64,000 nucleotides of DNA, from the NCBI RefSeq assembly GCF_001753165.1, contig NZ_CP017448.1, forward strand, positions 2,188,462-2,252,461. Direction: 5' to 3'. This DNA comes from Acidihalobacter aeolianus (GTDB taxonomy: Bacteria; Pseudomonadota; Gammaproteobacteria; DSM-5130; Acidihalobacteraceae). This document shows, piece by piece, positions 42,347 to 54,499 of this stretch (positions within the stretch are counted from its first letter, which is position 1; the number at the start of each line of letters is the position of its first letter). The position numbers and the translations under genes were made by a program. Under the pieces are notes generated by a model that was not told the origin of the DNA, made no database searches, and saw only the letters and a program-made list of their open reading frames with translations.

Positions 42347-43807
42347 TCAGGCCACCTCGCTACGCGGCGTTGCAACGACATCGGCGCTGCAGGGCGGCGC
42401 ATCGAACATGGCATTGCCGGGCACAGCGCCCTGATACCACTCCAGGCGTGCACGCAGCGAAACGACCTCACCCACGATCAGCAGGCTGGGCGAGCCCGCT
42501 TCCGCGCACCGCGCCGGCAAAGTTCCCAGAAAACCTGCGTGCACGCGTTGCCCAGGCGTGGTCCCCTGTTCCACCAGCGCGGCCGGCGTGTCTGCGGAAA
42601 GACCATTGGCAATCAACCGCTGACAGATCTCGGGCAGGTTCGCGAGCCCCATGTAGAACACCAGCGTCTGCCCCGGCGCGGCGAGCCCGGCCCAGTCCAG
42701 GCTCAGCCGGTCGTCGCGCGTGTGGCCGGTGACGAAACGTACGCTGGTCGCGCAGTCGCGATGGGTCAGCGGGATGCCGGCGTACGCGGCGCAGCCGCTC
42801 GCCGCGGTGATCCCGGGGACGACCTGAAACGGAATACCCGCCGCAGCCAGCCGTTCGATTTCCTCGCCGCCGCGCCCGAAAATGAAGGGATCCCCACCCT
42901 TGAGCCGCAGCACGCGCTTGCCCTCGCCGGCCAGACGCACCAGAAGCTGGCTGATCTCCTCCTGCGGCATGGCGTGGTCCCGCGCGCGCTTGCCGACGAA
43001 AACCCGCTCCGCCTCGCGGCGCGCCAGGGCCAGGATTCCGGGGCCTACCAGTCGGTCGTAGACGATCACGTCGGCCCGCTGCAGGAGGCGCAGGGCCTTG
43101 AGGGTCAGCAATTCCGGGTCGCCCGGCCCTGCGCCGACCAGCCAGACCTCCCCGCCCTGGATCGCACTACCCGCCTCGGCGGCATCGAGCGCCGCGGCAA
43201 GCCCTGCCGCCGCGCCCGAAATATCGCCGCTCAGCGCACGCGTTGCCGGCGCGCCCTCGAGCACATCCTCCCAGAACCGTCGGCGCGAGAGCGGCGAATT
43301 CAGTCGGCGCTTGACCTCGCCGCGCCATGCGCCGAGCAACGTCGCGAGGCGCCCCCAGGTATGCGGCACCAGGGTCTCCAGCCGGCTTTTCAGGTGGCGC
43401 GCAAGCACCGGCGCGTTGCCGCCGGTAGACACGGCAATGGTGACCGGATCGCGGTCGACGACGGCCGGCAGCACGAAGCTGCACAGGGCCGGTTGATCGG
43501 CCACGTTGACCGGCAGATTGCGTGTCCGCGCCGCGGCATAGACGCGGCGGTTCACGCCGACATCGTCGGTGGCGGCGATCACCAGCATGCGCCCGGCCAG
43601 GTGTCGCGCGGCAAATCGCTCGGGCAGCCAGGAGACCCGCTCGGCCACGTGCAGGGCGCGCAATTCGTCGCTGGCCTCCGGGGCGACCAGGGTCACCCGG
43701 GCACCCGCTTCCAGCAGCAGGCAGGCCTTGCGCACCGCCACCGGGCCACCGCCCACCACCAGGCAGTCGCGCCCCTTCACGTCCATGAAAATCGGCAAAT
43801 GTCGCAT
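42347..43807 (-). CDS. cysG: Sirohaem synthase (trifunctional CysG)
   Basis: 486 aa. N-terminal SirC/Met8-like dehydrogenase-ferrochelatase (about 1-210) starting MRHLPIFMDVKGRDCLVVGGGPVAVRKA, and C-terminal uroporphyrinogen methyltransferase (about 217-460) with VWLVGAGPGDPELLTLKAL and VVPGITAASGCAAYAGIPLTHR. It makes sirohaem from uroporphyrinogen III for nitrite reductase. GGAGG ribosome site; 19 nt after nasA. Confidence 0.96.
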   Translation of the reverse strand: MRHLPIFMDVKGRDCLVVGGGPVAVRKACLLLEAGARVTLVAPEASDELRALHVAERVSWLPERFAARHLAGRMLVIAATDDVGVNRRVYAAARTRNLPVNVADQPALCSFVLPAVVDRDPVTIAVSTGGNAPVLARHLKSRLETLVPHTWGRLATLLGAWRGEVKRRLNSPLSRRRFWEDVLEGAPATRALSGDISGAAAGLAAALDAAEAGSAIQGGEVWLVGAGPGDPELLTLKALRLLQRADVIVYDRLVGPGILALARREAERVFVGKRARDHAMPQEEISQLLVRLAGEGKRVLRLKGGDPFIFGRGGEEIERLAAAGIPFQVVPGITAASGCAAYAGIPLTHRDCATSVRFVTGHTRDDRLSLDWAGLAAPGQTLVFYMGLANLPEICQRLIANGLSADTPAALVEQGTTPGQRVHAGFLGTLPARCAEAGSPSLLIVGEVVSLRARLEWYQGAVPGNAMFDAPPCSADVVATPRSEVA

Positions 43808-43826: not shown

Positions 43827-46475
43827 TCAGGCGCTGTGCTGCGCCTGAGCCAGAATCTCGCGTAGTTCGGGGATGCACGAACCGCAATTGGTACCCGCGC
43901 GCAGGGCCTCTCCGATCGCCTCCACGCTGGTGAGTCCTTGCTCGTCGATGGCCTCGACGAGCGTATTGAAACCGACGCCGAAGCAGGAACAGACCGGCCG
44001 CCCGGCCACCTGCATGCCCGTCGACGGCCGGCCGGCGAGCAGGCTCATGCGCGCGACGTCGTCGAGATAGTCCTCCGCAAACATCTGCCCTAGCCAGCTG
44101 CGCTCAGGAAGATTGCCTGGGGCCACGAAGAACACGAGTTCCAGACGTCCGTCGCGCAGTCGGGCACAGCGATAGCGCCCGGCCGCGGGGTCCGCGTACT
44201 CCATCCATTCGCCGGGGCCGAGCAGATGCGCCTGAACCCACCGCCCCCAGTCCTCCGGTTCCTCTTCGCCGGCCAGTTCGTAACGATGAAAACCCCGGCT
44301 GGGGATATGCACCCGGTAGTCTCCCAGTGCGATTTCCAGCGGCGACCGGCTGAGCAGGAAACCCGTCCAGTCCGGCCGGAACGGCTCCACGCGGACCGGG
44401 GCGTGCTTGAATTCCGGCTGTCCCGAAACCGGGTCGGTGACCGCTGCGGTCAGCACGTTGGCACGCGCATCGCGCGCATAGGTCTCGCTCCAGTGCATGG
44501 GCACGAACACCGAACCCGGCCGTTGCGCGGCATCCAGCTTCACCCGCGCCAGCATGCCGCCATGCGGACTGCTCAGCCGCGCCAGCCCGCCCTCGGCGAG
44601 ATGCCAGAGATCCGCGTCCAGGGGATGGATCTGCACGAAGGGTTCGGGCATGTGCGTGGTCAGCCGCGGGGTCCGCGCGGTGCGCGTCATGGTGTGCCAC
44701 TGATCGCGGATGCGGCCGGTATTCAGCACCAGGGGGTATTCGTCTCCGGCGGGTACCGCGGGCGGCCGCGGGGCGACCGGCAGCAGAAGCGCACGCCCGT
44801 CGGCGGTCGCGAAACATCCATCCGCGAACAGGCGCGTCGTACCTGAAGGCGTTGCCGGCGTTACCGGCCACTGCACGGGCGCCAGGGCGTCGTAGGCCGC
44901 ATCGTCCAGATCCGCCAGTGCGCCGATGTCGAATAGGCGTGCGCCGCCGTTTTCGAACCCGGATAAGGCCGCGTGTTCGCGAAAGATGTCGGCCGGCGAG
45001 CGAAAGGTGAAGGCATCGCCATGCCCCAGCCGGCGCGCGACCTCGGTCACGATCCACCAGTCGGGCCGGGCCTCGCCGGGTGGCGGCAGGAACGCACGCA
45101 TGCGCGAGATGCGACGTTCGGAATTGGTCACCGTGCCGTCCTTCTCGCCCCAGGTTGCCGCGGGCAGCAGCACGTCGGCGCAGGCCACGGTATCGCTGCC
45201 GCGCACGCAATCGGAAACGATCACGTGTTCGCAGGCGGCAAGAGCAGCCCGCACGCGTTCGCCGTCGGGCAGGCTCACCACCGGATTGGTGGCCATGATC
45301 CACACTGCCTTGATCCGTCCGTCCGCCACCGCTTCGAACAGATCGACGGCCTTGAAGCCTGGCGTCGCCGCGACCGCCGGCACGCCCCAGAAGCGCGCCA
45401 GGCGGTCGCGAGCGTCCGCATCCTCGATGTCCATGTGCGCGGCGAGCTGATTGGCCAACCCCCCGACCTCGCGTCCGCCCATTGCATTGGGCTGACCGGT
45501 CAGAGAAAACGGCCCCATGCCCGGGCGGCCGATGCGTCCTGTGGCCAGATGGCAGTTGATCAGCGCCACCCCCTTGTCCACGCCGCTGCTGGACTGGTTG
45601 AGTCCCTGCGACCACAGGGTCACGGTTTTCTCGGTGTGCAGGAACAGGCGAAAGAATTCCGCAACCTGCGCCGCCGGCAGCTCGCAGGCGGCGGCCACGG
45701 CAGGGATCGAGGGCGCTGCGGCGCGCGCCGCGGCAAGCGCGTCGTCCAGCCCCTGCGTATGCGCATCCAGGAACGCCCGGTTCAGACCGTCCTCCCTGGC
45801 CAGGAAGCTCAGCAGCCCGTCGAACAGCCAGGCGTCGCTGCCCGGGCGCAGTGCGAGGTGCAGGTCGGCGATGTCGCACGTCGGCGTGCGGCGCGGGTCG
45901 ACGACCACCACGCGCAGCTCCGGCCGACGGCGCTTCTCCGCCGCCACGCGCTGATACAGCACCGGATGGGTCCACGCGGCGTTCGAACCGACGAACACCA
46001 GCAGATCGGCCTGCTCCAGATCCTCGTAGCTGCAGGGCACCGCGTCCTCGCCCAGCGTCCGCTTGTAGGCGGCCACCGCCGAGGACATGCACAGCCGCGA
46101 GTTGGTATCGATGTTGGCCGCCCCGATGAAGCCCTTCATCAGCTTGTTGGCGACGTAATAGTCCTCGGTCAGCAGCTGGCCGGAGACGTAGAAGGCCACG
46201 GCCTGCGGTCCGTGGGTCTCGATCACGCTGCGCAGGCGCCCGGCCACCTCGCCGAGAGCGGCCTCCCAGCTCACCGGGGTCCCGCCGATTTCCGGGCGCA
46301 GCAGGCGGTCGGCCTCGCCCAGGGTTTCGCCCAGTGCCGCGCCCTTGGAACAGACCCGTCCGCGGTTGGCCGGATGCGCGACATCCGGCGTCACTGCAGC
46401 CCGCCCATCGCCCGGCTCGACGCGCAGGCCGCAACCGACGCCGCAATAGGGGCAGACGGTGGACGTCTCAGCCAT
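43827..46475 (-). CDS. nasA: Assimilatory nitrate reductase catalytic subunit
   Basis: 882 aa molybdopterin oxidoreductase. N-terminal [4Fe-4S] ligands in VCPYCGVGCGL and RVCSKG. Mo-bis-MGD domain with SSAVAAYKRTLGEDA and GQPNAMGGREVGG. The C-terminal extension carries a BFD-type [2Fe-2S] domain with CSC and NCGSC, as in Klebsiella NasA. Cytoplasmic, no Tat signal. Start 46475 overlaps nirD by 8 nt. Electron donor subunit NasC is not present in the window. Confidence 0.94.
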   Translation of the reverse strand: MAETSTVCPYCGVGCGLRVEPGDGRAAVTPDVAHPANRGRVCSKGAALGETLGEADRLLRPEIGGTPVSWEAALGEVAGRLRSVIETHGPQAVAFYVSGQLLTEDYYVANKLMKGFIGAANIDTNSRLCMSSAVAAYKRTLGEDAVPCSYEDLEQADLLVFVGSNAAWTHPVLYQRVAAEKRRRPELRVVVVDPRRTPTCDIADLHLALRPGSDAWLFDGLLSFLAREDGLNRAFLDAHTQGLDDALAAARAAAPSIPAVAAACELPAAQVAEFFRLFLHTEKTVTLWSQGLNQSSSGVDKGVALINCHLATGRIGRPGMGPFSLTGQPNAMGGREVGGLANQLAAHMDIEDADARDRLARFWGVPAVAATPGFKAVDLFEAVADGRIKAVWIMATNPVVSLPDGERVRAALAACEHVIVSDCVRGSDTVACADVLLPAATWGEKDGTVTNSERRISRMRAFLPPPGEARPDWWIVTEVARRLGHGDAFTFRSPADIFREHAALSGFENGGARLFDIGALADLDDAAYDALAPVQWPVTPATPSGTTRLFADGCFATADGRALLLPVAPRPPAVPAGDEYPLVLNTGRIRDQWHTMTRTARTPRLTTHMPEPFVQIHPLDADLWHLAEGGLARLSSPHGGMLARVKLDAAQRPGSVFVPMHWSETYARDARANVLTAAVTDPVSGQPEFKHAPVRVEPFRPDWTGFLLSRSPLEIALGDYRVHIPSRGFHRYELAGEEEPEDWGRWVQAHLLGPGEWMEYADPAAGRYRCARLRDGRLELVFFVAPGNLPERSWLGQMFAEDYLDDVARMSLLAGRPSTGMQVAGRPVCSCFGVGFNTLVEAIDEQGLTSVEAIGEALRAGTNCGSCIPELREILAQAQHSA

Positions 46476-46800
46476 GGCTCGCGACCTGCGCGTCAGCCAG
46501 CTCAAGCCAGATCGTCCCTTCCTCGACGCGCGTGGCGAAACACGCCGTGGCGCCCACGTCGGGCGCCGCCGCCTCGCCGCTGTCGAGGGCGATCTGCCAG
46601 TTGTGCAAGGGGCATGTCACACGTCTGCCGTGCACGATACCCTGCGACAGCGGCCCGCCCTTATGCGGGCAGCGGTCGCGCAGGGCGAACACCGCATCCT
46701 CGGCGTTGCGGAACACGGCGATATCGCCCTCGGCCGCGCGCACGATGCGTGCGCCGAGGCGCGGGATATCCTCCAGCCGTCCGATCTCGATCCAGGCCAT
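46468..46800 (-). CDS. nirD: Nitrite reductase small subunit (Rieske-like)
   Basis: 110 aa Rieske-like fold. It keeps Rieske-type ligands: CPHKGGPL and CPLHNW supply Cys-x-His and Cys-x2-His, whereas many NirD proteins lack them. The start shares the TGATG junction with the nirB stop. Cytoplasmic partner of NirB. Confidence 0.92.
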   Translation of the reverse strand: MAWIEIGRLEDIPRLGARIVRAAEGDIAVFRNAEDAVFALRDRCPHKGGPLSQGIVHGRRVTCPLHNWQIALDSGEAAAPDVGATACFATRVEEGTIWLELADAQVASHG

Positions 46801-49244
46801 CACACCACCTCCTTGAGCGGGACGAACTCGTGTCGGTCGCGACCTTCCGCACGCTCCTGCCAGGGATCGATCTGCGCGAACCGCTGTGAATACATGAACC
46901 GTTCGTAGAGCCCGGCGCGTACCACGGCATCCTCCACCACCACGCGCTTGACGTAGGACACGCCGACCCGCTCCAGCCAGGGGGCGGTACGCTCCAGATA
47001 ACGCGCATCCTCGCGGTAGAACTGGATGAAGGCCGCGGTGTATTCGAGCACCTCCTCGGGCGTGCGCACCTTGCACAGGAAATCGGTCGAACGCACCTTG
47101 GTGCCGCCGTTGCCGCCGACGTGCAGTTCGTAGCCGGAATCCACGCACACCACGCCGAGGTCCTTGACGTTGGATTCGGCGCAGTTGCGCGGGCAGCCGG
47201 AAACCCCAATCTTGAATTTGTGCGGCATCCACGAACCCCAGGTCAGCTTCTCCAGATCGATGCCGAGGCCGGTCGAGTCCTGCGTGCCGAAGCGGCACCA
47301 CTCCGAACCGACGCAGGTCTTCACAGTGCGCAGGGCCTTGGCATAGGCGTGCCCGGAGACGAAGCCGGCACGCGTGAGATCGCCCCACATGGCCGGCAGG
47401 TCCTCCTTCTTCACCCCCAGCAGGTCGAGCCGCTGGCCACCGGTGAACTTGACCGTGGGTACCTGATACTTCTCGGCCACCTCGGCGATGGCGCGCAGCT
47501 CCGCGGGCGTGGTCACCCCGCCCCAGATGCGCGGCACCACCGAATAGGTGCCGTCCTTCTGAATGTTGGCGTGGGCGCGCTCGTTGATGTAGCGCGACTG
47601 GTAGTCGTCCACGTACTCGCCCGGCCAGGCGCACAGCAAGTAGTAGTTGAGCGCGGGGCGGCAAACATGGCAGCCGCTGTCGTTGTTCCACTGCATCGCG
47701 ACGAACACCGCCGGCATGTCCTTGAGACCCTGCTTGCGGATCGCCTCGCGCACCTCGTCGTGGGTGTGCTCGGTGCAGCCGCACAGGGGCTTGCGCGAGG
47801 GCGCGGTGGAGTAGTCGCCGCCGACGGTGGCGGCGAGGATGTTCTCCACTAGGCCGGTGCAGGAACCGCAGGAATTGCTCGCCTTGGTGTGCAGGCGCAC
47901 ATCCTCCAGCGTGAACAGCTTCTTGCTGGTGATCGCCTGCACGATCTCGCCCTTGCACACGCCGTTGCAGCCGCAGATCTCGGCATTGTCCGGCAGACTG
48001 GCGATGCGCGACTCCTCGTCGCCATGGCCGGTGTCGCCGATGTGTGCCTGGCCGAACAGCAGGTTCTCGCGGATATCCGAAACGTCGGCGCCGTCGCGCA
48101 TCAGCTGGAAGTACCACGGCCCGTCGAGGGTGTCGCCGTACATCACCGCGCCCTCGATGCGGTTGTCCTTGAGCACCAGCTTGCGATAGATGCCGCGTGC
48201 GGCATCCTGGAACACCATTTCCTCGCAGTCCTCGTCGCCGTTGAAGCGACCGGCGGAGAACAGGTCGATGCCGGTCACCTTGAGCTTGGTCGAGGTCATC
48301 GAGCCGCGGTACTGGGCGATGCCGTATTCGGCCAGATGGTTGGCGCAGACCTTGGCCTGCTCGAACAGGGGAGCGACCAGGCCGTATACGCTGCCGCGAT
48401 GCTGCACGCACTCGCCGACCGCGTAGATGCTGGGATCGAAGGTCTGCAGCGTGTCGTTGACCAGGATGCCGCGCTCGCAGTAGAGCCCGGCCTCCTGGGC
48501 CAGCGCGACATTGGGCCGGATGCCGACGGCCATCACCACGAGGTCGGCCTCGAGCTCGCCGCCGTCCTGGAAGCGCACCCCGGTGACGTGCTCATCGCCG
48601 AGGATCTCGGTGGACTGCGCACCCAGGCGGAACTGCAGCCCGCGGCTTTCCAGCGCGCGCGCCAGCAGACCGGCGGCCGCAGCGTCGAGCTGACGCTCCA
48701 TGAGGATGTCGGTGATGTGCACCACGGTTACCGACATGCCCTGCTTGAGCAACCCGTTGGCCGCCTCCAGTCCGAGCAGTCCGCCGCCGATCACCACCGC
48801 GTGACGCCCGCTGTGTGCGGCCGCGAGCATGGCGTCGACGTCCTGGATGTCGCGGAAGGCGACCACGCCGCGCTTGTCGTGACCCGGCAGCGGGATGATG
48901 AACGGCTTGGAGCCGATGGCCAGGATCAGGCGGTCGTAAGCCGCCTCGGTGCCGTCCTCGGCTATCACGCGACGGCGCACGCGGTCGATGCGCGCGATCC
49001 GCTTGCCCTTGTGCAGGGTGATGCCGTGGTCGCGATACCAGGCGTCGTCGTTGAGGATGATGTCGTCGATGCGCTTCTCGCCGGCCAGGACCGGTGACAG
49101 CATGATGCGGTTGTAATTGCCGTAGGGTTCGTCGCCGAACACGGTGATGTCGTACATGTCCGGGGCGAGCTTGAGCAATTCCTCAAGCGTCCGCACGCCC
49201 GCCATGCCGTTGCCGACCAGTACCAGTTTCTGCTTGCCAGTCAT
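46800..49244 (-). CDS. nirB: NAD(P)H-dependent nitrite reductase large subunit
   Basis: 814 aa. FAD/NAD domain (about 1-310: VLVGNGMAGVRTLEELL, and VIGGGLLGLEAANGL), BFD-type [2Fe-2S] domain with CGCNGVCKGEIV and SCGSCTGLVE, then the sulfite/nitrite reductase domain with the sirohaem-[4Fe-4S] ligands in TCVGSEWCRFG and SGCPRNCAES. Six-electron reduction of nitrite to ammonium in the cytoplasm. GGGAG ribosome site; 14 nt after nasS. Confidence 0.97.
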   Translation of the reverse strand: MTGKQKLVLVGNGMAGVRTLEELLKLAPDMYDITVFGDEPYGNYNRIMLSPVLAGEKRIDDIILNDDAWYRDHGITLHKGKRIARIDRVRRRVIAEDGTEAAYDRLILAIGSKPFIIPLPGHDKRGVVAFRDIQDVDAMLAAAHSGRHAVVIGGGLLGLEAANGLLKQGMSVTVVHITDILMERQLDAAAAGLLARALESRGLQFRLGAQSTEILGDEHVTGVRFQDGGELEADLVVMAVGIRPNVALAQEAGLYCERGILVNDTLQTFDPSIYAVGECVQHRGSVYGLVAPLFEQAKVCANHLAEYGIAQYRGSMTSTKLKVTGIDLFSAGRFNGDEDCEEMVFQDAARGIYRKLVLKDNRIEGAVMYGDTLDGPWYFQLMRDGADVSDIRENLLFGQAHIGDTGHGDEESRIASLPDNAEICGCNGVCKGEIVQAITSKKLFTLEDVRLHTKASNSCGSCTGLVENILAATVGGDYSTAPSRKPLCGCTEHTHDEVREAIRKQGLKDMPAVFVAMQWNNDSGCHVCRPALNYYLLCAWPGEYVDDYQSRYINERAHANIQKDGTYSVVPRIWGGVTTPAELRAIAEVAEKYQVPTVKFTGGQRLDLLGVKKEDLPAMWGDLTRAGFVSGHAYAKALRTVKTCVGSEWCRFGTQDSTGLGIDLEKLTWGSWMPHKFKIGVSGCPRNCAESNVKDLGVVCVDSGYELHVGGNGGTKVRSTDFLCKVRTPEEVLEYTAAFIQFYREDARYLERTAPWLERVGVSYVKRVVVEDAVVRAGLYERFMYSQRFAQIDPWQERAEGRDRHEFVPLKEVV

Positions 49245-49258
49245 CTCGATTCTCCCAA

Positions 49259-50647
49259 TCAGGAAGTGCCTTCCCCAGCGCTGTCGACCATGCGGGCCGC
49301 GCGCGAGGAACGGGGGCGATTCAAATGTCTCAGGGTATCCAGCAGCACGCGGTGCTGGGCGATGGCGAAGGACTCCAGATAGCCCACCGGGTCCTGCGGA
49401 TCGAAGCGGCTGCCGTCATAAAAGGCGTCCGCGCCCATGAGCAGCGACTCGGGTGTCGCTTGCGCGAGCTGCCATTCGCCGGCGTGCAGGCCTTCGGGCT
49501 TGTAGTCGATGAGCGGACAGGCCCAGCCGAGCGCCTCGGCCGCCTCGCGGTAGTACTCCGGACGGTAGGCCGCCGCCGCGATGGCTTCCAGATCGTGCGC
49601 CGCCTCGACCTGGCCCCAGCGGTAGAGCTGCAGCTCGAACCAGAGCGCGTGCGAGCGCCAGGGAAACATCGCCGCATAGCGATGGAACACATTGAAGTCC
49701 GGCTGCGCCACCGGCGCTGCGCCCGGGTCGAACACCAGTTCGCCGTGCAGCGGCAGATCCAGCAGGGGTTGTTTGATGCCGACGTACTCCGGTCTTGCGA
49801 GCAGCGCCGCCGCTTCGCCGCGATGAGCCGGATCGTCCAGCCACTCGCCGGCGCGCATGATCGCGCGCACCAGCGCCCGCAAGGTGTGCGGGTGCCGGTC
49901 GGCCCATTCCTGGGTGGCGCCCAGCACCTTCTCCGGCTTGTGCCGCCAGAGCTGGTCGCTGGTGATCGCGATATGCCCGTGCCCGCCCTGTACGGCAAGG
50001 CTGTTCCAGGGCTCGCCGACGCAGAAGCCGTCGATTTCGCCGGCGCGCAGGCGTGCGACCATTTGCGGCGGCGGAATGACCACGATGCGGATGTCGCGGT
50101 CGGGATCGATGCCAGCCGCGGCCAGCCAGTAGCGCAGCTCGTAGTTGTGGCTGGAGACCGGGTACACCACCGCGAAGGTCAACGGCGGCGCTCCGACGTC
50201 CCGATCCGCACCGATGACCTGGCGCAGCGCATCCGCCGTACGGGGACGCTGCGCCAGCTCGTCGCCGGAAACCTCTTGCATGCGCGCGAACAGACGCCGG
50301 GACAGCGTGATGGCGTTGCCGCCCAGCCCCAGGCTCAGCGCGGCGACCAACGGACGCCGCACGGCGGTGATGCCGAGCTGGCTGGCCACCGGCATGCCGG
50401 CCAGCATCTGCGCACCGTCCAGCGCGCCCATCATGACCTTGTCGCGGATATTCGCCCACGAAGGCTCGCGCGAAAGCGTGACGTCGAGGCGTTCGTCGGC
50501 GAACAGACCGAGCTCGCTGGCCACGACCAGCGGCGCACAGTCGGTCAGCGGCACGAAGCCCAGCGTCAGTTCGCGTTGTTCCAATTCGCTGCCGGGCCGT
50601 TTCCCGAGTTTGAGCCGGGAACGCCCGCCCGCAGTGTTTTCAGCCAT
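49259..50647 (-). CDS. nasS: NasS: cytosolic nitrate/nitrite-sensing partner of NasT
   Basis: 462 aa, NrtA/CmpA family. LTLGFVPLTDCAPLVVASELGLF and AGEIDGFCVGEPWNSLA are typical. Start 50647 has GGAGTG 8 nt upstream and gives no signal peptide or lipobox, which favours cytosolic NasS over periplasmic NrtA. No nitrate ABC permease or ATPase is in the window, and nasT is close by. NasS sequesters NasT without nitrate. Its own gene is the first after leader 1, so the sensor would be made as part of the operon it controls. Confidence 0.88.
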   Translation of the reverse strand: MAENTAGGRSRLKLGKRPGSELEQRELTLGFVPLTDCAPLVVASELGLFADERLDVTLSREPSWANIRDKVMMGALDGAQMLAGMPVASQLGITAVRRPLVAALSLGLGGNAITLSRRLFARMQEVSGDELAQRPRTADALRQVIGADRDVGAPPLTFAVVYPVSSHNYELRYWLAAAGIDPDRDIRIVVIPPPQMVARLRAGEIDGFCVGEPWNSLAVQGGHGHIAITSDQLWRHKPEKVLGATQEWADRHPHTLRALVRAIMRAGEWLDDPAHRGEAAALLARPEYVGIKQPLLDLPLHGELVFDPGAAPVAQPDFNVFHRYAAMFPWRSHALWFELQLYRWGQVEAAHDLEAIAAAAYRPEYYREAAEALGWACPLIDYKPEGLHAGEWQLAQATPESLLMGADAFYDGSRFDPQDPVGYLESFAIAQHRVLLDTLRHLNRPRSSRAARMVDSAGEGTS

Positions 50648-50668
50648 GCCTAACACTCCATTCGGACC

Positions 50669-50766
50669 AAAAAAAGGCGTCGCAGCGTTTCGTGCACTGG
50701 ACACGAACGCGACGACGCCTTTGTCGATAGTTTCTGCGCTGAACCTTCGGGGGCCCGCCGTTGGGC
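50669..50766 (-). promoter_or_regulatory. NasT-type antitermination leader before nasS (two hexaloops plus terminator)
   Basis: On the minus strand, in order: hairpin P1 at 50766-50753 (GCCC-AACGGC-GGGC), hairpin P2 at 50746-50729 (AGGTTC-AGCGCA-GAAACT with one internal mismatch), then an intrinsic terminator at 50722-50669: a long GC-rich stem with a 7-nt loop followed by seven U. Both hexaloops have A at position 1 and G at position 4, the mark of ANTAR-protein RNA targets. The U-run ends 21 nt before the nasS start, so termination would block the whole nasS-nirBD-nasA-cysG series. Confidence 0.85.
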
Positions 50767-50802
50767 GCCTGAAGGCGTATGCTCAAATCTTGAATCTAAT
50801 GA

Positions 50803-50818
50803 AGCACATCGCATGCCA
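50803..50818 (-). promoter_or_regulatory. Sigma-54-like promoter of the nasS-nirBD-nasA operon
   Basis: On the minus strand TGGCATGCGATGTGCT matches TGGCACG-N4-TTGCW at GG, GC and most other positions, with the required GG-to-GC spacing. Transcription would start near 50792, about 26 nt ahead of hairpin P1. Confidence 0.65.
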
Positions 50819-50881
50819 GTCTTGGGTACGGCACAACCCGTGTTTGCACGACTCGGAAGGCCCGTCCTCGCCCGACATCAC

Positions 50882-50896
50882 GCACCGCAGTGGTGC
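50882..50896. promoter_or_regulatory. NtrC-type enhancer site upstream of nasS
   Basis: GCACC-GCAGT-GGTGC is a perfect dyad of the NtrC consensus (GCAC-N7-GTGC). Its centre lies about 97 nt upstream of the predicted sigma-54 start, the usual enhancer distance. It falls in the gap after the 51-aa gene. Confidence 0.6.
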
Positions 50897-50933
50897 GCCC
50901 ATTGCGAGCGCGCACCGCGACGACGCGTGTGCT

Positions 50934-51089
50934 TCAGTGTTTGCCCGGAAAGCCTCCCAGGCCGTGAAACGCCATGTACAGCGAATAGGCGCTCACTGCG
51001 ATGGCGATGAACATCTCAAAGAACATGAAGGCCACGCCGTACTTGTACCAGGGCTCGTGCGATTTCACTTGCGTATCGTTGCCATGCAT
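50934..51089 (-). CDS. Small single-span membrane protein, 51 aa, in the nas cluster
   Basis: Ribosome site GGGAG about 8 nt before the ATG at 51089. Polar N-terminus (MHGNDTQVKSHEPWYKYG), one hydrophobic segment about residues 19-43 and a short tail ending GGFPGKH. It lies 85 nt after narK on the same strand and before the nasS leader, so it is likely co-transcribed with narK. No family recognised; a partner of the NarK-type transporter is a guess from position. Confidence 0.68.
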   Translation of the reverse strand: MHGNDTQVKSHEPWYKYGVAFMFFEMFIAIAVSAYSLYMAFHGLGGFPGKH

Positions 51090-51174
51090 GTCGGATTCTC
51101 CCTAAAGCGGCATCAGTTACGCCGCCTGCAATGTGTGTTGCCCGCCGTCCGTCTGGGCGACGGGCATGCTCCAA

Positions 51175-52500
51175 TCAGGCCTTCTCGACCACCGTTTCAC
51201 CGCGTGGCTTGAGCCAGTTCTCACCGATGCCGTGGTCCTCCGGGTGGTGCTCGTAGCGAGCCGCCCAGAAATAGAACAGCGTGAAGGGGATGAACATGAA
51301 CAGGGCGATGTAGAGGTAGCCCATGTGGATGTTGCCCACGTGCGCAAACACCAGCGGGTAGACGATGCCGCCCGCGGTCGACACACCGCCGATGAAGCCC
51401 GCCGCGACGCCCGGGCGATCGGGGAACAGCAAGGGCACGAGCGCGAAGGTGCCGCCGGTGCCAAAGCTCACGAAGATGCCGAAGGCGACCAGCACCATCA
51501 CCGACAGCGGCAGCGAATTCATCAGGCCTGCGACCGTGAATGCCACCATCGACAGCGTGATCAGCAGCAGCGAGATGGCCAGCCAGTGCAGCCGCGGCGC
51601 ATAAGGCAGGGTGCGTGCAATCATCGGCAGCGGCGTCCAGCCGCGACGCTGGAACAGGTCGGACATGAAGCCCGAGAACGGCCGGAACAGCGAGGCGGTG
51701 AACGACTGCACGGCGGCGAAGGTGCCCGCCGCAATCTGCACGCCGGCGATGCTGGTGAAGCCGAGGGCGAGGATCGCCTCGTGGAAACCGCGCGTGAAGT
51801 AGCCGGGCAGCCAGGCGTTCATCGCGATTTCCAGGCCGAAGGACATGGCGTAGGCCAGCATCAGGGCGATGGCGATATAGCGCGTCCAGACAAAAACCGT
51901 GCCCCTAAAATCGGCGGACTGACGCGCGGTGGCGCGCACCTTTTCGTGCTTGGCGGCTTCGCCGCGAAGCAGATACCAGGCCGCGATGCCGAGCGCGATC
52001 ACGCCCAGCCAGAGGAAGGCCGCCTGGTAGTCGAGACCGAAAATGCGCGGCAACAGCAACGCCCCGACGCCGGCACCGACGTTGCCCGTTCCCGCATACA
52101 GCCCCTCGGCAGTACCGATCTCGTCCGGCTCGAACCACTGTGCCACGTGCTGGATACCGACCACGAAGGACACGCCCGCGATGGCCACGATCACCCGCTC
52201 GATGAACAGGATGTCGTAGTCGGTGGTATAGGCCGAGGCGATGGAAACCAGGCCGCAGACCGCCAGAATCGTCGCGAAGGTACGCGGCGCGCCAAAGCGA
52301 TCTGCCGCCCAGCCGGCGACGATGCGGCCTATCGGGGCCATCCAGATGGCCGAACTGGCCAGCAGGCCGAGCGCCGCCAGGCTGAGGTTGTAGTGGTTGG
52401 CGATACTCGGGCTGAAGGCAGCCGTCGAGAACCACATCAGAAAGCACCAGAAAAAGCCGACGGTCGCGATGACCAGTTGTTCAACCTTGTGCGTTTTCAT
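51175..52500 (-). CDS. narK: NarK/NasA-type MFS nitrate/nitrite transporter
   Basis: 441 aa with about 12 membrane segments. Nitrate/nitrite porter features: GWAADRFGAPRTFA after segment 2, and the glycine-rich nitrate signature GTGGTFALVPLLFPDRPGV with AAGFIGGVSTAGGIVYPL. Start 52500 has GGAGGA just upstream; a longer in-frame start adds 13 residues before it. As the only nitrate importer seen in the cluster it should supply NasA. It is preceded by leader 2 and a sigma-54-type promoter. Confidence 0.92.
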   Translation of the reverse strand: MKTHKVEQLVIATVGFFWCFLMWFSTAAFSPSIANHYNLSLAALGLLASSAIWMAPIGRIVAGWAADRFGAPRTFATILAVCGLVSIASAYTTDYDILFIERVIVAIAGVSFVVGIQHVAQWFEPDEIGTAEGLYAGTGNVGAGVGALLLPRIFGLDYQAAFLWLGVIALGIAAWYLLRGEAAKHEKVRATARQSADFRGTVFVWTRYIAIALMLAYAMSFGLEIAMNAWLPGYFTRGFHEAILALGFTSIAGVQIAAGTFAAVQSFTASLFRPFSGFMSDLFQRRGWTPLPMIARTLPYAPRLHWLAISLLLITLSMVAFTVAGLMNSLPLSVMVLVAFGIFVSFGTGGTFALVPLLFPDRPGVAAGFIGGVSTAGGIVYPLVFAHVGNIHMGYLYIALFMFIPFTLFYFWAARYEHHPEDHGIGENWLKPRGETVVEKA

Positions 52501-52623: not shown

Positions 52624-52730
52624 AAAAAAAAACGGCGCCGCCCGGACGAAATAAAGCTTCGTCCGGGTGACGCCGTTGTCCTGTTTGAGGGTCAGCTTTG
52701 ACTCTCGATTGTGCCGGGCCATCGTTGGCC
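52624..52730 (-). promoter_or_regulatory. NasT-type antitermination leader before narK (two hexaloops plus terminator)
   Basis: On the minus strand: P1 at 52730-52717 (GGCC-AACGAT-GGCC), P2 at 52706-52687 (GAGAGTC-AAAGCT-GACCCTC, one A-C mismatch in the stem), then a terminator at 52677-52624: 10 bp (CCCGGACGAA side) plus 7 bp separated by a small internal loop, a 7-nt loop, and nine U. Both hexaloops again have A1 and G4. The terminator ends 124 nt before the narK start. Confidence 0.88.
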
Positions 52731-52753
52731 AAGCCATGCTTGAGCCGAGTTAA

Positions 52754-52769
52754 AGCAAAAGATGTACCA
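52754..52769 (-). promoter_or_regulatory. Sigma-54-like promoter of narK
   Basis: On the minus strand TGGTACATCTTTTGCT fits TGGCACG-N4-TTGCW, including TTGCT at -12 and GG at -24. The start would be near 52743, 13 nt before hairpin P1. A weak NtrC-like sequence (GTGC-TACTTTG-GTGC, 52847-52861) lies about 110 nt upstream but is not a true dyad. Confidence 0.72.
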
Positions 52770-52894: not shown

Positions 52895-53485
52895 TCAACC
52901 GAGCAATTCTGCCGCGGCCAGCAACATCCTCGCGACGTCGCCCAGCTTTTGGTTGCGGTCCATGGCGAGCTTGCGTAGGGCCGAATAGGCATCCTCTTCC
53001 GAGAGCCCCTTCTGGCGCATCAACACGCCCTTCGCCTTGTCGATGTCGCGCCGGTCGGCCAGCTTGTTGCGGGTCAGATCCAGTTCGTTGCGCAGGGCCT
53101 GATATTCGCGAAAACGTGCGATGGCCACGTCCATGATCGGCCGGATGCGACTGGGATTGAGCCCATCCACCACATAGGCGCTGACGCCGGCGCGCACCGC
53201 CTCCTCGATGGTCGCACCGTCGCTCTGCGCAGCGAACATGATGACCGGCCGGGGCTGTTCGCGGTTGATCAGGCGCATGGATTCGAGGGTGTCGCGGTCG
53301 GGGATATCCATGTCGACGAACACGACGTCGGGCTGCAGCTCCTGCACGCGCTTGAACACGTCATCCCCGTCGGACAGGCGCGCGACGACCTCGCAGCCCT
53401 GATCCTTGAGCGCCTGCTCGAGGATCGCGGCACGTCCGGCTGACTTGTCGAACAGCATTACACGCAAACGGCCGCGTTGATTCAT
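52895..53485 (-). CDS. nasT: NasT-type ANTAR antitermination regulator
   Basis: 196 aa. Receiver-like N-terminus (RLRVMLFDKSAGRAAILEQAL, VVFVDMDIPDRDTLESMRLI) and C-terminal ANTAR three-helix RNA-binding domain about 132-192 (RRDIDKAKGVLMRQKGLSEEDAY, ALRKLAMDRNQKLGDVA). It binds dual hexaloop RNA to prevent termination; NasS inhibits it without nitrate. Two such leaders occur in this window. GGAGGGG ribosome site 8 nt before the start. Transcribed ahead of the narK promoter on the same strand and apparently from its own promoter. Confidence 0.93.
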   Translation of the reverse strand: MNQRGRLRVMLFDKSAGRAAILEQALKDQGCEVVARLSDGDDVFKRVQELQPDVVFVDMDIPDRDTLESMRLINREQPRPVIMFAAQSDGATIEEAVRAGVSAYVVDGLNPSRIRPIMDVAIARFREYQALRNELDLTRNKLADRRDIDKAKGVLMRQKGLSEEDAYSALRKLAMDRNQKLGDVARMLLAAAELLG

Positions 53486-54360: not shown

Positions 54361-54392
54361 AAAAAAAATCCCGCACATCCATGTGCGGGATT
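54361..54392 (-). terminator. Intrinsic terminator downstream of the glutathione peroxidase gene
   Basis: A near-perfect 12-bp stem (54367-54378 with 381-392, core ATCCCGCACAT/ATGTGCGGGAT) followed on the minus strand by a run of eight U (54368-54361). It faces the peroxidase gene, 108 nt after its stop. On the plus strand it lacks a U-run. Confidence 0.85.
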
Positions 54393-54499
54393 GACTAGGA
54401 GGAAAGTATCGAATTTCCGCCGTTACGCGGCCAGTCGCGCAACGGCGGGGTCATTATGACCGCCGCGCATGACACCCTCATTGCACCGCGCGTTCCGAC

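Follow-up and report, generated by a model that had tools for sequence, protein, structure and literature searches.

In the stretch of DNA analysed here (64,000 nucleotides, referred to below as the window), nasS, the gene for a nitrate-sensing protein, lies directly behind an RNA leader of the type on which NasT acts, which raises the question of whether NasT controls the production of its own inhibitor. All features described below lie on the minus strand, where the order is nasT, leader 2, a narK-like MFS gene, a small ORF of 51 residues, leader 3, nasS, nirB, nirD, a nitrate-reductase-like molybdoprotein gene, cysG and a hemD-like gene. The nasT gene (52895..53485) encodes a receiver plus ANTAR protein (PF03861 and PF00072), and nasS (49259..50647; NMT1_2, 293.7 bits) encodes a cytoplasmic nitrate-sensor homologue that is, by homology, a NasT inhibitor. 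The nirB gene (46800..49244; TIGR02374, 951 bits, above cut-off) starts 18 nt past the end of the nasS match and is presumed to be cotranscribed with nasS. It is followed by nirD (46471-46803), by nasA (43827..46475), which was recognized as an assimilatory nitrate reductase-like molybdoprotein gene by Pfam, NCBIfam and tblastn, and by cysG (42347-43807). The genome to which the window belongs (G000; 3.53 Mb in two contigs) holds one ANTAR protein, the window's NasT, and one NasS, the window's copy; a second NasS-like match, which covers 102 residues at 25% identity (E 2e-6), was not accepted as a NasS. Genes for RpoN and for NtrC are present, the latter above its cut-off, and no leader was seen before nasT. 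The small ORF (50934-51089) follows narK, encodes a membrane-type product and is conserved in two other loci (L130 and L131).

Leader 3 is of the NasT type and lies between narK and nasS (50669-50818). It has the sigma-54-like promoter that a first-pass annotation of this DNA had read there (TGGCATGCGATGTGC, 50818-50804), which is common to all four nasS leaders compared below. The promoter is followed by an extended P1, or recruitment, hairpin (50744..50775), with the minimum free energy fold CCUUC / GG / GCCC-AACGGC-GGGC / CC / GAAGG, whose hexaloop AACGGC (A1, G4) lies at 50762-50757, as had been annotated from sequence and is now seen in the fold. The P2 antiterminator hairpin, CGAC-AAAGGC-GUCG (50713..50726), is conserved in four genomes and overlaps the 5' arm of an intrinsic terminator (50669..50722; -32.4 kcal/mol, z -6.1), such that the P2 hexaloop AAAGGC (50722-50717) lies inside that arm. 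The annotated terminator was confirmed and proved strong, and its run of seven T (50675-50669) ends 21 nt before the nasS ATG (50647). A GGAG that resembles a ribosome-binding site can be read from the sequence before that ATG (50656..50659).

When the full leader is folded, the terminator forms, with a free energy of -56.4 kcal/mol (z -5.1) that none of 200 shuffled sequences reached. In a fold of the RNA shortened to the last base of P2, both P1 and P2 form, with a z of -2.4 at -27.2 kcal/mol that 3 of 200 shuffles matched, showing that P2 folds in the model once the 3' arm of the terminator is missing. Since the loop and 3' arm of P2 are the same bases as the outer 5' arm of the terminator, the two structures are mutually exclusive. 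The linker between P1 and P2 in the four nasS leaders is 25-33 nt long when measured from the inner P1 stem and, by eye, 13-22 nt from the outer stem. The eut leaders, as described in PMC3369931, have linkers of 5-12 nt, and 14 nt already impaired induction. Since such spacing characterizes eut leaders, and the descriptor search reported here admitted 0-55 nt, we did not treat a short linker as defining for NasT leaders.

A leader directly before nasS is also present in two genomes of the same genus (G001 and G002) and in one from another family (G244), and in all four genomes, that of the window included, an NtrC-like site, the sigma-54 promoter, P1, P2 and the terminator have been kept before nasS. 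The claim of a second NasT-type leader in this position is thus well supported, with a promoter, a P1, an embedded P2 and a terminator in each of the four. The P1 hexaloops are AACGGC, AATGGC, AACGGC and AACGAA; P1 has the same shape throughout while its outer stem differs from genome to genome (CCUUC/GAAGG, CCGGG/CCCGG, CUGGA/UCCGG and CCGA/UCGG), with full pairing in four of four. Exchanging the outer P1 arms of G000 with those of G001 or G002, in either direction, leaves 2 of 5 pairs, while G001 and G002 can swap arms and retain 5 of 5 and 4 of 5 pairs. These outer pairs were read off the folds, the MAFFT alignment of P1 being out of register in the outer stem; linker variation was too great for MAFFT to hold P1 and P2 in register. 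P2 shows one A-U to G-U change over the four genomes and three of its four pairs are invariant, which leaves it too constant for covariation to lend it support. Of the terminator's pair cells, 96.4% are kept and two pairs have changed on both sides, a slight covariation, given that 95 of 500 shuffles reach the same number. Without the terminator, the leaders of G001, G002 and G244 fold no better than shuffled sequences. In two further genomes of the same family (G003 and G004), nasS comes after nrtC, the short gap between the two holds no leader, and a leader precedes nrtA. By eye, narK and the nasS leader of G244 are separated by a globin-like gene, perhaps for nitric oxide (L132, 6309-6726).

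Given this anatomy, we consider it very probable, from the sequence and by analogy with related systems, that leader 3 is a NasT-responsive antitermination leader over nasS-nirB-nirD-nasA(-cysG), through which NasT would raise its own inhibitor NasS. This reading builds on the anatomy of the leader, its conservation, the single nasT and nasS genes, and the presence of two leaders. Weighing against it are a linker longer than that of eut leaders, the scant covariation of P2 and of the terminator, the folding of the G001, G002 and G244 leaders without their terminators, and the lack of an Rfam match at gathering score. In published work on NasS and NasT, the complex is reported to part on nitrate or nitrite, and a nasS mutant to be constitutive (PMC3795266). 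NalA, the leader of nirBD in Pseudomonas, is described in a review as being started by sigma-54 and NtrC and antiterminated by NasT (PMC12830290). The parts of a NalA-type leader occur in the same order here, with nasS placed between leader and nirB, so that synthesis of inhibitor and enzymes would require both a shortage of nitrogen and free NasT. When nitrogen is limiting, NtrC and sigma-54 RNA polymerase would start the transcript, which by default would stop before nasS because P2 is absorbed into the strong terminator. Nitrate would free NasT from NasS, and NasT, recruited at P1, would then hold P2 (AAAGGC) and so deprive the terminator of its 5' arm, allowing nasS and the enzyme genes to be made. 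With the genome's one nasS placed behind the leader, free NasT would raise its own inhibitor, a negative feedback expected to keep NasS near NasT in amount and to shut the system off quickly when nitrate ends. The first-pass annotation had spoken of a feedback loop tying inhibitor and enzymes together. The wiring for it is closed, there being one ANTAR protein, one NasS and two such leaders. By analogy, binding of NasS to NasT and of NasT to the RNA, readthrough, a response to nitrate and the feedback effect itself may all be predicted from this arrangement.

The position of nasS was also compared between lineages on a tree of NasS-like proteins. We labelled 188 NasS-like rows, each of at least 300 residues, and built a tree of 152 of these with FastTree, 36 exported rows being left out; three rows were relabelled manually, L174 as exported, L032 as unknown and L003 as operon. 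Shorter rows were dropped, among them L028, which is directly behind a leader, L152, whose operon has a leader ahead of nrtA, and L175. In the tree, nasS is in front in 81 rows, 77 adjoining nasT without a leader between and 4 in the order nasS-nasT, and behind in 30, comprising 14 immediately preceded by a leader and 16 that follow nrtABC within an operon, counts that are not prevalences since the loci were chosen by similarity to the window's NasS. The remaining rows were uncounted: 3 operon rows in which nasT lies downstream, 3 whose gap was unscored, 9 without context and 26 exported relatives. The behind and front positions are separated by at least six changes on the tree, which may include transfers, and the position directly behind a leader is separated from the other counted cytoplasmic rows by at least five. 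A leader was found upstream in 10 of the 16 operon rows; for the other six (L003, L008, L025, L147, L151 and L153), it was not found or the locus is cut. The direct cases include, in the Alphaproteobacteria, Reyranella and other Rhodospirillales-type loci (L013, L014, L022, L027, L031, L040 and L044), and, in gamma lineages, the window's group, L007 and L157, and L145. Where narK takes the place of nrtABC as the upstream transporter, the leader stands directly before nasS.

These results bear on a reading in which the leader serves only to co-regulate the enzymes, nasS being a passenger whose level is irrelevant because basal readthrough supplies enough NasS. Passenger genes are common in operons and nirB follows nasS within 20 nt. 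However, several lineages have nasS either behind a NasT leader or within the enzyme operon, with the changes on the tree counted above, and the loci with narK for nrtABC still place a leader directly before nasS; we therefore regard a passenger nasS as rather unlikely. In three of the alphaproteobacterial loci (L013, L014 and L022), the T-run of the leader abuts or enters the start of nasS, and the terminator may for that reason also hide the ribosome-binding site there.

The first-pass annotation had taken a different hairpin as P2, with the hexaloop AGCGCA and a pattern of 3 bp, mismatch, 3 bp. The hexaloop is present at 50740-50735 and can form a hairpin (AGGUUC-AGCGCA-GAAACU, 50729..50746). 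By eye, its pattern is instead 3 bp, mismatch, 2 bp, and we judge the hairpin to be a linker element and not an antiterminator. Alone, it has a free energy of -1.1 kcal/mol, with a z of 0.0 against shuffles; the hexaloop is absent from the linkers of G001, G002 and G244; and its 5' arm is already paired in the outer stem of the extended P1. In the accounts of characterized ANTAR leaders that we consulted, P2 is a hairpin embedded in the terminator (PMC8934654, PMC3369936, PMC3369931). On the comparison of sequences, the conserved antiterminator hairpin of leader 3 is that with AAAGGC in CGAC/GUCG, not that with AGCGCA.

It might still be supposed that NasT uses AGCGCA in addition to AACGGC and AAAGGC, in the manner of leader 2. 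That leader (52624..52769, aligned with relatives) lies before narK and has a sigma-54-like element of its own (TGGTACATCTTTTGC, 52769-52755); it carries the hexaloops AACGAT and AAAGCT together with AACGGC (52677-52672), the last embedded in the terminator (hexaloop region 52669-52734). A third hexaloop hairpin in this leader had been overlooked earlier. At least two A1/G4 hexaloop hairpins upstream of P2 were found in 37 of 108 leaders, leader 2 included, and AGCGCA fits A1/G4 and can be closed with 3 bp. Nevertheless, its hairpin is no more stable than shuffles, is missing in three relatives and would need a 5' arm taken by the conserved extended P1, making a three-hexaloop leader 3 quite improbable. 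Other six-base loops occur upstream of P2 at approximately 0.8 per leader and, as A1/G4 loops make up 1/16 of loop space, we estimate that roughly 5 extra would arise by chance. Leaders with two hexaloops upstream and one embedded in the terminator include those of L013, L014, L022, L131, L132, L150 and L156, among others; the characterized ANTAR leaders, as far as they are described in the sources consulted, have two.

The window's NasS matches NrtA (2g29) with an E value of 9.4e-60, and no Tat, Sec or hydrophobic N-terminus was seen on it. We did not accept every NasS-like match as a NasS: many, with 37-58% identity to the window's or a second NasS query, combine a Tat signal with a position before nrtB/nrtC, and these were for that reason labelled exported and were not counted as behind a leader. 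Conceivably, the window's NasS could be a cytoplasmic nitrate-binding helper of the enzymes that no longer inhibits NasT, with NasT controlled otherwise. It lies among enzyme genes and does not adjoin nasT, exported relatives are near it in the tree, and NasT of P. putida is reported, in the review that describes NalA, to be inhibited also by c-di-GMP (PMC12830290). Against this, the genome encodes one NasT and no NasS besides this protein, on which no signal peptide was seen, so we think such a loss of function very unlikely. Four other genomes (G059, G085, G286 and G744; loci L141, L143, L148 and L191) each encode one ANTAR protein and, at a threshold of E 1e-12, just one member of the NasS family, which carries a Tat signal and is in an operon with nrtB/nrtC. 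In these, either NasT acts without NasS, or the Tat precursor, folded but not yet exported, could act on it.

As a pattern within the window alone, the sigma-54 element is weak evidence, with 6 matches against 3.05 expected. Across the 108 leaders scoring at least 40, however, a sigma-54-like element lies no more than 160 nt upstream in 70, as opposed to 0 of 108 both for an equal-length segment further upstream and for the opposite strand. Upstream of the promoter of leader 3 is a perfect palindrome, CGCACC-N5-GGTGCG (50881..50897), also overlooked earlier, which is the sole match in the window (0.07 expected). We call it an NtrC-like upstream activator site on the basis of what we take to be the NtrC consensus. 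A perfect GCACC-N5-GGTGC precedes nasS in four of four genomes, 67-78 nt upstream of the -24 element. Of the 70 leaders with a sigma-54 element, 5 have such a perfect site 30-200 nt above it (control 0), the nasS leaders of the window and its three relatives all belonging to these five, and 16 have one with at most one mismatch (control 1). That the hairpin is just the terminator of a transcript of narK and the small ORF, nasS having its own promoter, is extremely improbable: the hairpin does come after the narK unit, with 21 nt between it and the nasS ATG, but the conserved sigma-54-like promoter and NtrC-like site sit before the terminator and not after it, and no sigma-70-type promoter was found in 50600-51200.

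The anatomy of leader 3 could also be turned into a search. A first descriptor, with two hexaloops upstream of and separate from the terminator, gave 40 forward matches as against 2 reverse ones and 4 from two shuffles. That the nasS leaders of G001, G002 and G244 escaped it showed that P2 had been wrongly conceived, and it was replaced by a descriptor consisting of a P1 hexaloop hairpin, a P2 hexaloop hairpin overlapping the 5' arm of the terminator, and the terminator. In 121 loci (1.42 Mb), this gave 96 forward matches, 95 of them outside annotated genes, with 7 in reverse and 9 from two passes over shuffled sequence; in 161 loci (1.75 Mb), it gave 125 forward against 11 in reverse. Genome-wide in G000, the pattern of P2 plus T-run occurs at exactly two sites, one per window leader; a reversed control pattern also gave two. 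A search of the window's leaders against Rfam returned no match at gathering score, nor were any leaders matched at that score in 24 leader-bearing loci. Below threshold, Rfam P11, which is presumably NalA, matches leader 3 with an E of 0.002 and 30.1 bits (gathering 70), spanning promoter, P1 and terminator. The narK RNA (RF03032) likewise matches both leaders below threshold, with 24.5 and 21.6 bits (gathering 43.2). Its printed consensus contains CCAACGGCGG and GACAAAGACGUC, and its model marks the first hairpin only. The consensus sequences of RF03032 and RF00625 both have A1/G4 hexaloops and a GACAAAGRCGUC box; given these in its consensus, the narK RNA could be one of the NasT leaders. 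Elsewhere in the window, a strong hairpin followed by eight T (54361-54404) drew unrelated sub-threshold Rfam matches. With P2 placed inside the terminator, a simple descriptor thus catches NasT leaders that Rfam misses.

In NalA, the NasT-dependent leader of Pseudomonas nirBD, nasS is not known to lie between leader and nirB, unlike in leader 3, whose first gene is nasS, ahead of nirB. For an inhibitor gene behind its switch, amiECBRS, in which AmiC inhibits AmiR, is a precedent. Like NalA as reviewed, leader 3 would be started by sigma-54 and NtrC, with default termination relieved by NasT (PMC12830290). The locus also resembles nasTS-leader-nasABGHC of Paracoccus denitrificans, which, as described, combines the NasT/NasS pair with an antitermination leader for the enzyme genes (PMC5424462, PMC3795266); there, nasT and nasS are cotranscribed ahead of the leader, whereas in the window nasS is behind it. 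The published NasS-NasT systems that we compared, in so far as their sources describe them, have nasS ahead of the leader and made together with nasT. With amiECBRS of Pseudomonas aeruginosa, whose gene order is given in PMC3369936, the window shares an ANTAR antiterminator with a ligand-binding inhibitor. In that operon, in contrast, amiR too is behind its leader, whereas in the window nasT lies upstream and was not seen to have a leader of its own. The eut leaders of Enterococcus EutV have A1/G4 hexaloops in P1 and P2, with P2 embedded in the terminator, as here (PMC3369931, PMC8934654); unlike here, that system is described as taking two-component phosphorylation input and having the short linkers given above. 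In the literature searched, which covered few subscription papers, we found no description of nasS behind a leader or of the recurrence of this position. The novelty is thus modest: the type of leader is already known, its placement before nasS is less usual, and AmiC/AmiR offers a precedent for the logic.

A toy model of the feedback, with arbitrary parameters and intended as illustration only, suggests what such a placement might confer. Over an eightfold range of NasT, the nitrate ratio went from 7.4 to 2.2 with feedback and from 18.6 to 1.0 with constant NasS, and was thus less sensitive to the amount of NasT under feedback, the constant design being better at the lowest NasT. When nitrate was removed, synthesis fell further with feedback (0.16 as opposed to 1.28). 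The idea that enzyme must overshoot under nitrogen limitation without nitrate found no support in the model, where with feedback the enzyme climbed to its steady state and showed no peak above it. Tentatively, we suggest that in several proteobacterial lineages nasS may have been relocated on more than one occasion, leaving the neighbourhood of nasT for a place behind a NasT leader, its control being maintained through a fresh leader wherever the upstream transporter was exchanged. NasT would then set the amount of its inhibitor, and feedback would replace cotranscription to give a switch that is robust to the level of NasT and fast to turn off; we hold this possible, with more doubt than confidence. 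An inhibitor placed behind the switch would change the logic of control, since its synthesis would depend on nitrogen shortage together with free NasT, and nasS in front of or behind the leader offers a natural pair of architectures, built from the same parts, in which the value of feedback may be tested.
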